DNA from: Crossaster papposus | Taxonomy: Eukaryota; Echinodermata; Asteroidea; Velatida; Solasteridae | Direction: 5' to 3' | Length of the DNA stretch: 64,000 nucleotides | Assembly: GCA_037893245.1 (NCBI GenBank) | Contig: JBAIAA010000781.1 | Coordinates: 186,001-250,000 of the forward strand | Shown: piece by piece, positions 6,641 to 18,200 of the stretch | Layout: each line of letters opens with the position of its first letter | How positions within the stretch are numbered: position 1 is the stretch's first letter | Notes under the pieces: generated by a model | What the model saw: only the letters and a program-made list of their open reading frames with translations | The model's database searches: none | What the model was told of the DNA's origin: nothing | Translations under genes and position numbers: made by a program

Positions 6641-9600
6641 CTCTTCGTGTTGTGTCATGGAGGCCAGACACTGTGATAGTGTGTAGCACAAACTCTTAGA
6701 TGCGTCCGCCATGCTGGCTAGTTGCCGCCGAACTTCTGGTAAACTCTCTTTTTAAAAAGAAAAACCACCAAAAGAAGAGAATACAAAGTAGAGAAATGTT
6801 GGTGCGACGGATTTGCGACGGACTCGAATCTCGAATACAACTCTGACTGATTTTCTGTGGACAACTTTTTGTGACCCACTCCACAAAAAAAGGGTTTTAT
6901 AGATTTAGTTATTAATTTTTTTGTTAAAATATATTAATGATTCGAAGCATAAGCTGACCGGACGTGTAAGAAACCACATTTGGCTATACGTCTAAATTGT
7001 AGTGTAGGTCAGGTAGCCGCCGGCGACAAAAAATAGATAATGACGCGATACAAGCAGCGTAGCTATGACGACGCAACAATTCAAATTTTAACGGCTCTTA
7101 CCAAAAAATAGCACAATGACTACAATATGACTGTGATATTCTTAGGCATTTCGTCTGGTGTTGACCTTGCTAATGTGAGTTTTATTTTATAAAAACCTGG
7201 AAACACTCGAACATCGCGAACGTTAAGCAATTCCTCCAGTTTTTGGTCACGTGACATTGGCGGCTAAATAATACATGAAAAATCACAAATAGTCAGAAAT
7301 ATTTGGTCTGGGAACCAGACTATAATAATCGAACACTACATTAAACAAAAACGACTTAGCGCGCATGCGGGGGCGAGTAGCTATTTGAGCTATGCTTGGA
7401 ATGTCCTCGGAATTTTTCGGGTTCACGTGACGCTTGCGCCAAGACCAAGATAGGGGATGAAATACACGAATCTGGCGATAATTAAGGGCGCCCTCAATAA
7501 GCCCAGATAATACGGACGGCGCGCCGCGGAACAAATGAACGGGCTAGCTTGGTCTTGACCAAGACTAGCCATTACATGAAAATGCACAGCGCGACTTAGA
7601 ACCCCTTTTTTTTGAGCCGGTCAGATTTATTCAAATGTGCAAGACACTGTCGCTTTATGCGCGAGTGACGGGCGTTGTCAGTCTCTGCCAACTTTCTCTT
7701 CGTAACCCGTTGAGGGGGGTATACTTGCCCACGGCGCCCTCACTCACCTATATACTCCAGAGCGGAGGCCTGGTCCTTGGCCTTTCTGCTCAGACAACCA
7801 TCCACGAGTTTCTGGAAACTCTCAGCTTGTTGCTCTAAGATTCTCTGGCGCGCCTGTGCGGTCTGTATATAAAGACACGGCAAGAATGCCAATTAACCAG
7901 TTCGCGGCGGATGACGAATATAAACGCAAAGTTTTCCCCAGATTCAAAATGGATGACGCATAAACACGTCACGAGCAATGCCGGGAATGTCTGTCAGCAG
8001 CGAGGAAGGCTGGAAATGCGTGGGTGTGCTTCTCGGTACCATCGGCCTGAACCTGCTTCAGATCGAGTTAAGTTAAAAAAAAATCCTGCGCGTCGTCTCG
8101 GTGATGTTATAATAATCCCGGCGCGAACTGGTTAATTCCGGTTTCAGTAGAATGAAACGACCGAGAAGATTTCTATCTCCCTTGGATGGGATGCCAAGTT
8201 CATCCTGATTGGGATCGTTTGAGAAGCAGGCCAGCTCGGCCCGCCCGGTAAGCCCTGGACGCTGCGAACACAGTGGCCGCCCGGTTACTCTGATCATGAG
8301 TCGCGAAAACCAACAAGACAAGGCAGCTAGTCTCTGCCAAAAAACACACGGGGTGCTGTGGTTTCCAACGATTGCCAGACGGCAAACCTTAGGAAAAAAC
8401 CCGACTACATCACGGCTATAGATGTGACTTCTTCCCTTTCTCATTGACCTGTGTATTACCACTATTGCCGTAGCCTTACTTTCAAGGAATCCGCGACGGA
8501 GCCTAGAGGAAGGAACTCTTCGCTGACGTCGTCGTAATCGTCGTCCAGCGTGCTGGCCATGGTGTAGTGATCGCTGTAGGCTCGGTGGTCCACCAGCGCA
8601 GTCAACCAATCCTGATGAAGGAAAAACAAAGTCGTCCCAATTACTAGCCAATCACAAGTCAGACACAAGTTGACTTCATCAAAGGTCAATCACAAGTCGA
8701 TTGGCTTGTGATTGGCTTGTGATTTGGCTTGTGATTTGGCTTGTGATTTGGCTTGTGATTTGGCTTGTGATTGGCTTGTGATTGGCTTGCGACTGGCTGG
8801 TGAATGGCTTGCAATTGACTAGTGATTGACTAGTGATTGACTTGTCATTGACTTGTCATTGACTTGTCATTGACTTGTCATCGACTTGCCATCGACTTGC
8901 CATCGACTTGCCATCGACTTGCCATCGACTTGCCATCGACTTGCCATCGACTTGCCATCGACTTGTCATCGACTTGTCATCGACTTGTCATCGACTTGTC
9001 ATCGACTTGTCATCGACTTGTCATCGACTTGTCATCGACTTGTCATCGACTTGTCATCGACTTGTCATCGACTTGTCATCGACTTGTCATCGACTTGTCA
9101 TCGACTTGTCATCGACTTGTCATCGACTTGTCATCGACTTGTCATCGACTTGTCATCGACTTGTACTTTCTTCCTAAAATTTTGATCGCGAAACAATCAT
9201 CATTTTCTTTTAAAATTAAAAAAAAAAATTACCTGAAATTTTGACGAGCAACATCGTTGGTGTTTTTAAATTTGTTATATTTTTGTTTACCAAATTTAAG
9301 ATAACGTTGTGTGGGTGCCAAATTGGTACGACGATTTGGATCATTTTTAGCGATCATCCCCTTGGTCTGAATCCATACCTACCTCTGGTGACATTTTAGT
9401 GCTGTCCGGATCAAGTAGCCACGTATGCACGGTGTTGTTCGAGTACTGTATCGTGAAAGCATTGGAGTTGGTTGCGCTGGCCTATAGAAAGTATAATTCA
9501 TATTAAAAATCAGATCGCGAATTGTAATTAAACTTTTGCTACAGTTAGGTTCTGTACACAATTAAGTAATCACTAATGGAAACAAAAATCCTCATTTAGA

Positions 9601-15233: not shown

Positions 15234-18200
15234 ATGGCGGTGCACCATCGACAATCGAGCAGCACCCGCAGAAAAGTTCAGGTAAACAGCAAAGTTTCAG
15301 GTGGCAAATCTTGTTTTGATGAGTGTTTAATACATTTAACTATCTGGAGAAGGTTTTTACAACACAGTGTGTGAATTGTACGGTGCCGATCGTTTGTAAA
15401 CTGTGTTTTAATTTGCTGTTTGGCGGGCTCGGGCGAAGGCCGAATTTATTCCGCCGTGTGAATTCAGAAGAACCTATTCATTCTCAATGACAGCGGCACT
15501 GTTTTTTAAAACTGTTTTGACGAACATAGATTTAGCCATTGATTATTGAAATTAACCTGGTCCTTTCTGTAAACTGGTCTACAATGTGTCGGGCATAACC
15601 AGCAACACTGAGCAAACTGTAGAGTGAAAAACCGGTGATTAAAAAAATTTGTTAAACTTTTTATTATTCAATTGTTAGGTCTAAAATGGAGTGCATATTG
15701 TGTCACAGCAATAGCGCCCTCTGTTGTCGTTTTTTTTAAAAATCATTTTGAAATTATTAATATTATTAGCGCACACAGGACAACCATTTATTAAAACATG
15801 TTTGCTATAACAAAATTGTTGTATTTGCTGATTGAAATATTTCTGTAATCAATTTGAGTGACGCATTACAAACTTTTATATGCAGGTTTCATTCGTGATC
15901 CGGGATGAAGTTGAGCGGCAGCACAGGTCAGGGGTCAACGGCCTCCAGTTTGATCCCACCTGCAACAAGCTGTACTCGGCCGGCCGCGACTCCATCATCA
16001 GAATATGGAACCTGAACAATCCCAAGGTCAGTAAATTGCGTCCCAACGATGCATGGCAACGGTCCCAACTATAATAGTTGGGACAGTCAGAACAATAGTT
16101 GGGACAATCCTAACTGTAGTTGGGATGAAGTTTGCAGGATTATGTCACTTATTTTGGGGTTGAACGTAAGGTTTTTTTGTTTGTTGCAGGACCCTTACCA
16201 ACAGTCTATGGAACATCACACGGACTGGGTAAATGACATCGTGCTGTGCTGCGATGGAAAAACATGTGAGTCCGCCTCGAGTCCGTCCCAACTCCGTCCC
16301 AACTCTGTCCCAACTCCGTCCCAACTCCGTCCCAAGTCTGTCCTAACTCCGTCCCAAGTCCGTCCCAAGTCTGTCCCAAGTCCGTCCCAAGTCTGTCCCG
16401 AGTCCGTCCCGAGTCTGTCCCACGTCCTTCCCAAGTCCGTCCCAAGTCTGTCCCAACTCCATCCCAAGTCCGTCCCAAGTCCGTCCCGAGTCCGTCCCGA
16501 GTCCGTCCCGAGTCTGTCCCGAGTCCGTCCCGAGTCCGTCCCGAGTCCGTCCCGAGTCCGTCCCGAGTCCGTCCCGAATCCGTCCCAAGTCCGTCCCAAG
16601 TCTGTCCCAAGTCTGTCACAAGTCTGTCCCAAGTCTGTCCCAAGTCCGTCACAAGTTTGTCCCAAGTTTGTCCCAAGTCCGTCCCAAGTCCGTCCCAAGT
16701 TTGTCCCAAGTTTGTCCCAAGTCCGTCCCAAGTCCGTCCCAAGTCCGTCCCAAGTCCGTCCCGAGTCCGTCCCGAGTCCGTCCCGAGTCTGTCCCCAGTC
16801 TGTCCCCAGTCTGTCCCCAGTCTGTCCCGAGTCCGTCCCGAGTCTGTCCCGAGTCTGTCCCAAGTCTGTCCCAAGTCCGTCCCAAGTCTGTCCCGAGTCT
16901 GTCCCGAGTCCGTCCCGAGTCTGTCCCCAGTCTGTCCCGAGTCTGTCCCGAGTCTGTCCCGAGTCTGTTCCGAGTCCGTCCCAAGTCCGTTCCAAGTTCG
17001 TCCCAAGTCTGTCCCAACTCCTTCTCAAGTCCGTCCCAAGTCTGTCCCGAGTCTGTCCCGAGTCTGTCCCGAGTCTGTCCCGAGTCTGTCCCGAGTCTGT
17101 CCCGAGTCTGTCCCGAGTCTGTCCCGAGTCTGTCCCGAGTCTGTCCCGAGTCTGTCCCGAGTCTGTCCCCAGTCTGTCCCCAGTCTGTCCCCAGTCTGTC
17201 CCCAGTCTGTCCCCAGTCTGTCCCCAGTCTGTCCCCAGTCTGTCCCACGTCCGTCCCGAGTCCGTCCCACGTCCGTCCCGAGTCCGTCCCGAGTCCGTCC
17301 CGAGTCCGTCCCGAGTCCGTCCCGAGTCCGTCCCGAGTCCGTCCCGAGTCCGTCCCGAGTCCGTCCCGAGTCCGTCCCGAGTCCGTCCCGAGTCCGTCCC
17401 GAGTCCGTCCCGAGTCTGTCCCGAGTCCGTCCCGAGTCCGTCCCGAGTCCGTCCCGAGTCCGTCCCGAGTCCGTCCCGAGTCCGTCCCGAGTCCGTCCCG
17501 AGTCCGTCCCAAGTCTGTCCCAACTCCTTCTCAAGTCTGTCCCAAGTCTGTCCCAAGTCTGTCCCAAGTCCGTCCTTAGTCTGTCACAAGTCCATCACAA
17601 GCCTATAACAAGTCTTGTGATTTACTTGTGACGTGCTAGCGATCCCTACTGCAGAGACCACCAGATTTCCGATTGACAATCAGAGTTATAATCGAGTAAG
17701 TCACAAGTCAATCACCAGTCATTCAGTCAATAGTCAACTAACAATCTATTTAAATAAACTTTGACAAAACCATTCCTTTGTTATTGTTCCTCTTGATGCT
17801 TCTAAACTGACTTGAGAATTGACTTGTTAATGACTTAATTACAACCCTGCTAAAAAATGTGTATGGAATTTGTTTTATTTTTCTGCCGCTAGTAATCTCT
17901 GCGTCATCAGACACAACTGTAAAAGTTTGGAATGCACAAAAAGGTTTCTGCATGTCCACCTTAAGAACGCACAAGGTGGGTGACTTTTAATTTGGTTTAA
18001 CCCTAATCATCCAAAATCCTTTTTGCCAAATTTGAACAATCCAGATTACGGTATTTCCTGGAAGTAAAGATTGCAAGCTATTTTTTTTATAGATACATTG
18101 TATGTTGTCGTGTTAGGCTTTATTTTGTAACTCAAAGTTTAGATCAATTGAAGAATTGTTCGTGACTGGAATATCGATTTGTGACAGGATTACGTGAAGG

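Follow-up and report, generated by a model that had tools for sequence, protein, structure and literature searches.

A hAT-like miniature transposon as a probable source of 11-bp minisatellites in introns of the starfish Crossaster papposus

Minisatellites built on one short unit fill introns of neighbouring genes in a stretch of 64,000 nucleotides of the genome of the starfish Crossaster papposus (assembly GCA_037893245.1, contig JBAIAA010000781.1, positions 186,001 to 250,000 of the forward strand). This whole stretch is referred to below as the window, and its own coordinates are used. The arrays, here called A, B1, B2 and C (B1 and B2 together being array B), lie in introns of ORP1 and WDR48 and in an intron beside ORP1 exons, and they raise the question of where a shared unit of 11 bp comes from. 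A preliminary description of the locus, made from the sequence alone, proposed either that a seeded 11-mer spreads or that some mechanism favours this unit in introns. The analysis reported here indicates that the arrays very probably arose by expansion of the subterminal repeats of a high-copy non-autonomous hAT-type transposon, a miniature inverted-repeat transposable element (MITE), of which an unexpanded copy lies in the same WDR48 intron as array C.

The miniature transposon and its family

The mitochondrial contig of the assembly agrees with a starfish: its COX1 is best read, by eye, with NCBI table 9 (AAA=Asn, AGA=Ser, TGA=Trp), and COX1 is preceded by the tRNA block L2-G-Y-D-M-V-C-W-A-L1-N-Q-P, an order that marks starfish. 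The assembly (1.02 Gb in 1841 contigs) was searched for repeats of the unit, with reversed patterns as controls. Exact dimers of one B1 unit occur 107 times (reversed control 0), and the trimer pattern GACTYGNGANN occurs 13,771 times (control 0). Trimers of the hexamer GACTYG were also counted by their spacing, which gave 13,930 places at 10 bp (control 1,426), 20,284 at 11 bp (21), 30,679 at 12 bp (406) and 1,817 at 13 bp (324); these counts are rough, as tandem 5- and 6-mers of the hexamer match the patterns for 10 and 12 bp as well, and the 11-bp count misses some minus-strand places on contig C1 that are found by GACTYGNGANN. Among 20 pieces of the genome taken at chosen round coordinates (190,648 bases), related arrays with 10-, 11- and 12-bp units are present in two, L025 and L027; six pieces (L011, L015, L018, L021, L022 and L023) are largely satellite, so that this sample yields no clean density estimate.

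Reading of L025 and L027 revealed shared termini and short direct repeats at the flanks of the arrays. The terminus CAGAGTTGTAATCGAGTC is found 1,852 times in the assembly with at most one mismatch (control 0). Complete copies end in CAGRGTTGTARTCGAGTC-like sequences on both sides (up to 5 mismatches), that is, in short terminal inverted repeats, and termini starting with CAG (CAGRG) are typical of hAT elements. In its unexpanded form, the element is about 140-260 bp long, has a conserved core and is flanked by 8-bp target-site duplications; one arm carries a few CAAGTC-type hexamers, some of them 11 bp apart, and the other carries GACTTG, often at 12-bp spacing. It is a short non-autonomous hAT-type transposon (MITE) with GACTTGTGATT-like units in one arm. 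The window copy, at 17681-17849, holds one and two exact hexamers in its arms. When the segment 17690-17853 was used as a query, relatives were found in L001, L003, L017, L025 and L027; the search of the genome gave 457 candidate places, and 40 of the 40 that were scored match, with 80-100% identity.

Target-site duplications were scored by a scan for pairs of termini in the fetched loci and the window, from which near-duplicate loci and the hAT flanks described below were left out, giving 14 pairs. At the exact edges, four pairs carry duplications of 8/8 and three of 7/8 (one of them in a G-run), the maximum among 178 cross-pairs of different loci being 6/8. With small offsets allowed, 7 of the 14 pairs reach 8/8 and 11 reach at least 7/8, the matched control giving 0 and 7 of 178. 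The three pairs without a duplication are L030 (probably spurious), L031 (a nested arrangement) and the window copy. The element at L065 has the duplication CACACAAG (8/8) and was missed by the scan because of an insertion in its right end.

Arrays are found inside such copies. The first 100 listed of the 13,771 matches to GACTYGNGANN form nine arrays in order along contig C1, the C1 arrays, and six of the nine sit in complete elements, in which core and both termini are present (the right end of L065 was identified by eye). The other three are L062, with a single terminus and inverted arms, and the array-only L067/L068 and L069. Intronic position was shown for one of the nine, L067/L068, where the exons on either side of the array together match SH3BP5 (PF05276, E 1e-38). 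Among 17 elements oriented by their core, the left arm is expanded in nine (9-52 hexamers, mostly 10-11 bp apart) and the right arm in one, L027, which is among these nine and holds 22 right-arm hexamers, for the most part at 12-bp spacing; since seven of the nine expanded copies and the unexpanded L064 were picked by searches with 11-bp patterns, this left-arm bias may be overstated and is only indicative. The remaining eight are unexpanded and 141-262 bp long, each arm holding 0 to 6 exact hexamers. For this comparison, limits were placed manually in L003, L031, L034, L035 and L036; L065 was cut too short on its right side (at 731 instead of 780), which leaves its left-arm count unaffected.

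Of 204 candidates in the genome for the hAT dimerisation domain, 150 were scored, which gave at least 110 matches. In the 3' flanks of 20 such matches, the terminus (up to 4 mismatches) is present in two, together with GACTYG clusters. One of these flanks, L047, ends in GACTTGGTTACAACTCTG, preceded by GACTTG clusters, and L050 is the second case. The L047 element, on contig C313, is 1,590 bp long and has CTGTTAGT on both sides as a perfect 8-bp duplication, GACTTG clusters at both ends and a diverged left end, CAGTGTTGTTGACTCGAGTC. Its 117-codon frame matches PF05699, the hAT dimerisation domain (E 1e-11), and represents a C-terminal transposase fragment only. When 150 of the 194 genomic candidates for the domain of this fragment were scored, at least 149 matched, many over a short length. 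In these two cases, the ends of the miniature element are shared with elements that contain hAT transposase sequence.

Arrays A, B and C in their introns

Tandem Repeats Finder, by which the tandem repeats of the window were called, gives array A as two overlapping rows (8699-9164), B1 as 79.5 copies and C as 120.5 copies (16268-17593), all with an 11-bp period, and B2 as 25 copies in the opposite orientation to B1, after a gap of 7 bp. Read on the GACT strand, with the register forced on the hexamer, the commonest units are GACTTGTCATC, GACTTGCCATC and GGCTTGTGATT in A, GACCTGGGAGT, GACTCGGGATT, GACCTGGGATT and GACTTGGGATT in B1, GACTTGTGATT in B2, and GACTCGGGACG, GACTCGGGACA and GACTTGGGACG in C. 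Array A begins with a few CAAGTC-oriented units (exact at 8650 and 8688), followed by GACTTG-oriented ones in which GGCTTGTGATT grades into GACTTGTCATC. In array C, a single mismatch separates the units at 16460, 17593 and 17612, the last two at the right edge, from the transposon unit.

The distance from GACTTGTGATT is 1 and 2 for A, 2 for B1, 0 for B2 and 4 for C, and 44 of the 47 places in the window within one mismatch of it fall in A, B, C or the small transposon. Judged by sequence, the identity of the units of A and B with that of the transposon is strongly indicated. For C, it is weakly indicated, and the link draws on the number of intermediate units, on the graded similarity to B1 and on the intact element 69 bp further on.

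The preliminary description is borne out in that arrays with one related 11-bp unit occupy ORP1 and WDR48 introns and in that their commonest units form a chain differing stepwise from array to array. Beyond the extent that it gave, 8640..17600, the feature continues to 17849; besides the 11-bp period of these arrays, 10- and 12-bp periods occur in the family elsewhere. Its gene names are supported by the matches of the WDR48 and ORP1 exons, and the exons around array A have no Pfam match. The coordinates are collected in Table 1.

Table 1. Arrays of the 11-bp family, the miniature transposon and the introns that contain them (window coordinates; intron limits set from splice sites)
Feature	Coordinates	Strand	Description
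Array A	8640..9166	+	11-bp family array, intron beside ORP1 exons
Array B1	12133..13006	-	about 79 units GACYYGGGAKT (minus strand), ORP1 intron
Array B2	13014..13288	+	about 25 units, commonest GACTTGTGATT, equal to the transposon unit; head-to-head continuation of B1
Array C	16268..17612	-	about 120 units GACTYGGGACR (minus strand), WDR48 intron
Unexpanded hAT-like miniature transposon	17681..17849	+	169 bp; ends CAGAGTTATAATCGAG...TTAATTACAACCCTG, conserved core
Intron with array A	8612-9382	-	splice sites; flanking exons by eye
ORP1 intron with B1 and B2	12112-13325	-	splice sites; ORP1/ankyrin matches
WDR48 intron with array C and miniature transposon	16266-17892	+	splice sites; WDR48 match

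The WDR48 exons match structure chains of WDR48 in one stretch over all 129 residues (E about 3e-80), with some other many-repeat WD40 proteins outscoring WDR48 in summed score. A single stretch of the ankyrin exons, residues 24-149, matches ORP1 chains (E 1e-43 to 1e-37); ankyrin families match too, and many-repeat ankyrins outscore ORP1 in summed score. The exons flanking array A, read by eye and searched as one peptide, gave no Pfam match, and the gene of this intron is therefore assigned from position and splice signals.

B1 and B2 together (12133-13288) make up 1156 of the 1214 bp of their intron and lie 21 and 37 bp from its two splice sites, and array C begins inside the splice donor, whose GT is at 16266. 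The distance to the donor is about 2 bp for C, 37 bp for B, 25 bp for the SH3BP5 array and 12 bp for an array in an ABC-transporter intron at L025 (about 4932-5690), and each of these four takes up most of its intron. Array A, 216 bp from the donor, breaks this pattern, and the near-donor regularity of the four may be due to the selection of examples. Another array, at L003, lies beside an exon without a Pfam match, which we take to be KIF1-like. Other minisatellites of the window, at 13636-14235 (within the ORP1 region) and 40696-41652, have 96-bp and 157-bp units.

Proposed seeding and growth, and alternative origins

The idea of a seeded 11-mer that spreads is essentially right, the seed being a hAT-like miniature transposon with termini, duplications and genome-wide copies. 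In Hermes, the subterminal repeats contain AAG(T/C), to which the BED domain binds, and the phasing of these repeats is important (PMC10368747). As CAAGTC contains AAGT, the hexamers of the starfish element probably serve as binding sites for the transposase, spaced by about one helical turn. After insertion, an arm that already holds tandem units would grow into a minisatellite by slippage or unequal exchange, variants of the unit would spread along the growing array, and some arrays would lose termini and core and persist as array-only minisatellites. Arrays A, B and C would be such remnants, the case being weakest for C. Their position in introns could follow simply from the tolerance of inserts there, and no intron-targeting step would be needed.

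Several observations weigh against this origin, as do the comparisons of array C with chance given in the next paragraph. Neither termini nor core are recognisable at arrays A, B and C, three of the nine C1 arrays lie outside complete elements, and the left-arm bias may owe something to the way in which copies were picked. The window copy of the transposon has no target-site duplication (4/8 at the edge, best 5/8 nearby). In eighteen of the 20 hAT 3' flanks, the terminus is absent from 1.2 kb of sequence even with 4 mismatches allowed, and no complete transposase with these ends was seen among the elements examined. Even with the register forced on the hexamer, its conservation inside the arrays does not clearly exceed that of the spacer, which gives no sign of selection for binding, and AAGT is absent from the CGAGTC variant, which is common in B1 and C. 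Unrelated 11-bp arrays also occur, both outside the window (L013) and within it, where 50 copies of GGGGTGTGGCA lie at 5401-5952 (distance 6; with 4 or more mismatches to the unit of the transposon), with a degenerate relative at 6022-6120.

The similarity expected by chance was modelled with 200,000 random 11-mers of window composition, whose distance to GACTTGTGATT was taken over all rotations and both strands: 0.02% lie within 1 mismatch, 0.4% within 2 and 20% within 4. The consensus of array C, at 4 mismatches, is thus by itself compatible with chance. Stretches of array C come closer to the transposon units (3 at distance 1 and 25 at distance 2); among 39 control tiles as long as C and taken from other parts of the window, 3 reach distance 1 and 20 reach distance 2. 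Such near-canonical units are no rarer outside C, in the rest of the window, and only their number in C is unusual, arrays multiplying whatever they hold. These features of C would suit a chance similarity of independent minisatellites, which is nevertheless the least probable of the explanations considered, as exact transposon units are present in A and B2 and the counts of 107, 13,771 and 20,284 against 0, 0 and 21 in the reversed controls refute chance for the family as a whole.

It is improbable that 11-bp arrays arise independently in introns, by replication or repair favouring the unit, and that the transposon acquired the unit secondarily. The absence of termini at A, B, C, L067/L068 and L069, the large share of the intron occupied by B, C and the SH3BP5 and L025 ABC-transporter arrays, and the existence of unrelated 11-bp arrays would agree with such an origin; however, a small number of units is already present in unexpanded elements at several sites, in part at 11-bp intervals, while intervals of 12 bp are common in the other arm; six of the nine ordered C1 arrays are in complete elements, and elements with hAT transposase sequence have the same hexamer in their ends. 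An introner-like gain, in which the element made the introns and for this reason left arrays within a few bases of splice sites, is less probable still. It would account for the start of C at the donor, for the 21 and 37 bp that separate B from its splice sites, and for the first hexamers 12 bp after the donor in the L025 ABC-transporter intron and 25 bp after it in SH3BP5, and would leave array A, at 216 bp, unexplained. Introns B and C were themselves rejected as introner products, as reading of their edges revealed no terminus or matching 8-mers.

Within the preferred origin, expansion of the arms of the miniature transposon, the transposase itself might drive growth, in that an arm with more AAGT sites would draw in more transposase, and the repair of breaks or stalled forks in the occupied arm would add units. 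We regard this step as doubtful. If it were true, a hAT family would manufacture minisatellites at very many loci, and introns of ordinary genes would be rebuilt almost wholly from binding sites, even up to the donor.

Related systems and other repeats

The statement of the preliminary description that no described system does this was too strong, since transposon-seeded tandem repeats are established (PMC9659126; Tetris, PMC4079207). A hAT family that seeds arrays with 11- and 12-bp arms seems new. By title and start of abstract, no hAT family with 11-bp minisatellite growth was found among the papers listed from the open-licence literature, which is weak evidence of absence, and no title among those listed there matched 11-bp intronic minisatellites.

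The TU elements of sea urchins and the FB elements of Drosophila have tandem short repeats in inverted ends, with 8-bp duplications and 15-bp units in TU. Foldback elements carry long inverted tandem-repeat ends on both sides; here, inverted arms are found in L027, L062 and B1/B2, and both arms are expanded in one of the 17 elements. A sea-urchin foldback is also mentioned in the report on Tetris, a foldback element of Drosophila virilis that, like the starfish element, is non-autonomous, has terminal tandem repeats that seed longer free-standing arrays and shares its ends with a MITE (PMC4079207). Tetris has units of about 220 bp and arrays favoured in heterochromatin, and its transposase was not found according to the passages on it (PMC4079207), whereas the units here are 10-12 bp long, the ends are of hAT type and some arrays lie in genes. 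Terminal tandem repeats also occur in Galileo of the P superfamily, where they hold multiple transposase-binding sites, proposed to serve specificity (PMC3688188); Galileo is of P type, with a THAP domain and long terminal inverted repeats (PMC3688188), unlike the short elements described here, which usually have one expanded arm. The Mutator/Foldback element Tm1 has variable numbers of a short motif, of 13-15 bp, in its ends (PMC3169594). A Mutator-type foldback does not fit, as Tm1 has a 9-bp duplication and a Phantom-like transposase (PMC3169594), in contrast to the 8-bp duplications and the hAT domain of the present family.

Within hAT, Hermes and Herves share with the starfish element several short subterminal motifs (PMC10368747, PMC3143072). 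Their motifs are interspersed, Herves having three 100-bp imperfect repeats (PMC3143072), and the passages concerned describe no large minisatellite growth such as that seen here. The mirages of amphioxus are likewise minisatellites in ordinary genes, length-unstable and with units from 10 bp upward (PMC3087553). An interpretation of the arrays as mirages was rejected, since mirages span the exon-intron boundary (PMC3087553), and arrays A, B and C lie inside introns and have one shared unit.

For a large set of minisatellites, some of them in genes, the family thus offers a concrete origin in the binding-site-like repeats of one transposon family. Its copies span from a few units to dozens, and one array-only relative in the window exceeds 100. 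With these variable numbers, and with a tendency to 11-bp spacing in one arm and 12-bp spacing in the other, the genome represents a natural experiment on the growth of short tandem seeds. As insertions are recognisable by their target-site duplications, growth after insertion is directly measurable, also between individuals.

Other repeats were seen alongside this family. A second dispersed short element lies at about 7894-8141, 10794-11210 and 22349-22754 of the window and at positions 2688-2930 and 4215-4460 of L025; at most of these places, it has the ends TTAACCAGTTCGCG...CGCGAACTGGTTAA, piggyBac-like by look, and a 29-bp minisatellite, CGAGCAAGGCCGGAAATGTCTGTCAGCAG, of variable copy number (by eye and from the tandem-repeat rows). 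Arrays with a 54-bp period are present at 26966-27761 of the window and at positions 1939-2332 of L009, and their unit holds ATTACCAATGGTGTATCCTACCTTT or a close sequence that is found elsewhere in the window in dispersed copies; these arrays are perhaps another case of seeding by a mobile element. One series of small repeats at 52340-56550 recurs at 58906-63014, with an offset of about 6.4-6.6 kb, pointing to a tandem segmental duplication. Outside the window, contig C8 (>5 Mb), possibly a bacterial contaminant or symbiont, has COX1-family matches without inner stops at 5208663-5210009 and 2872001-2873343.

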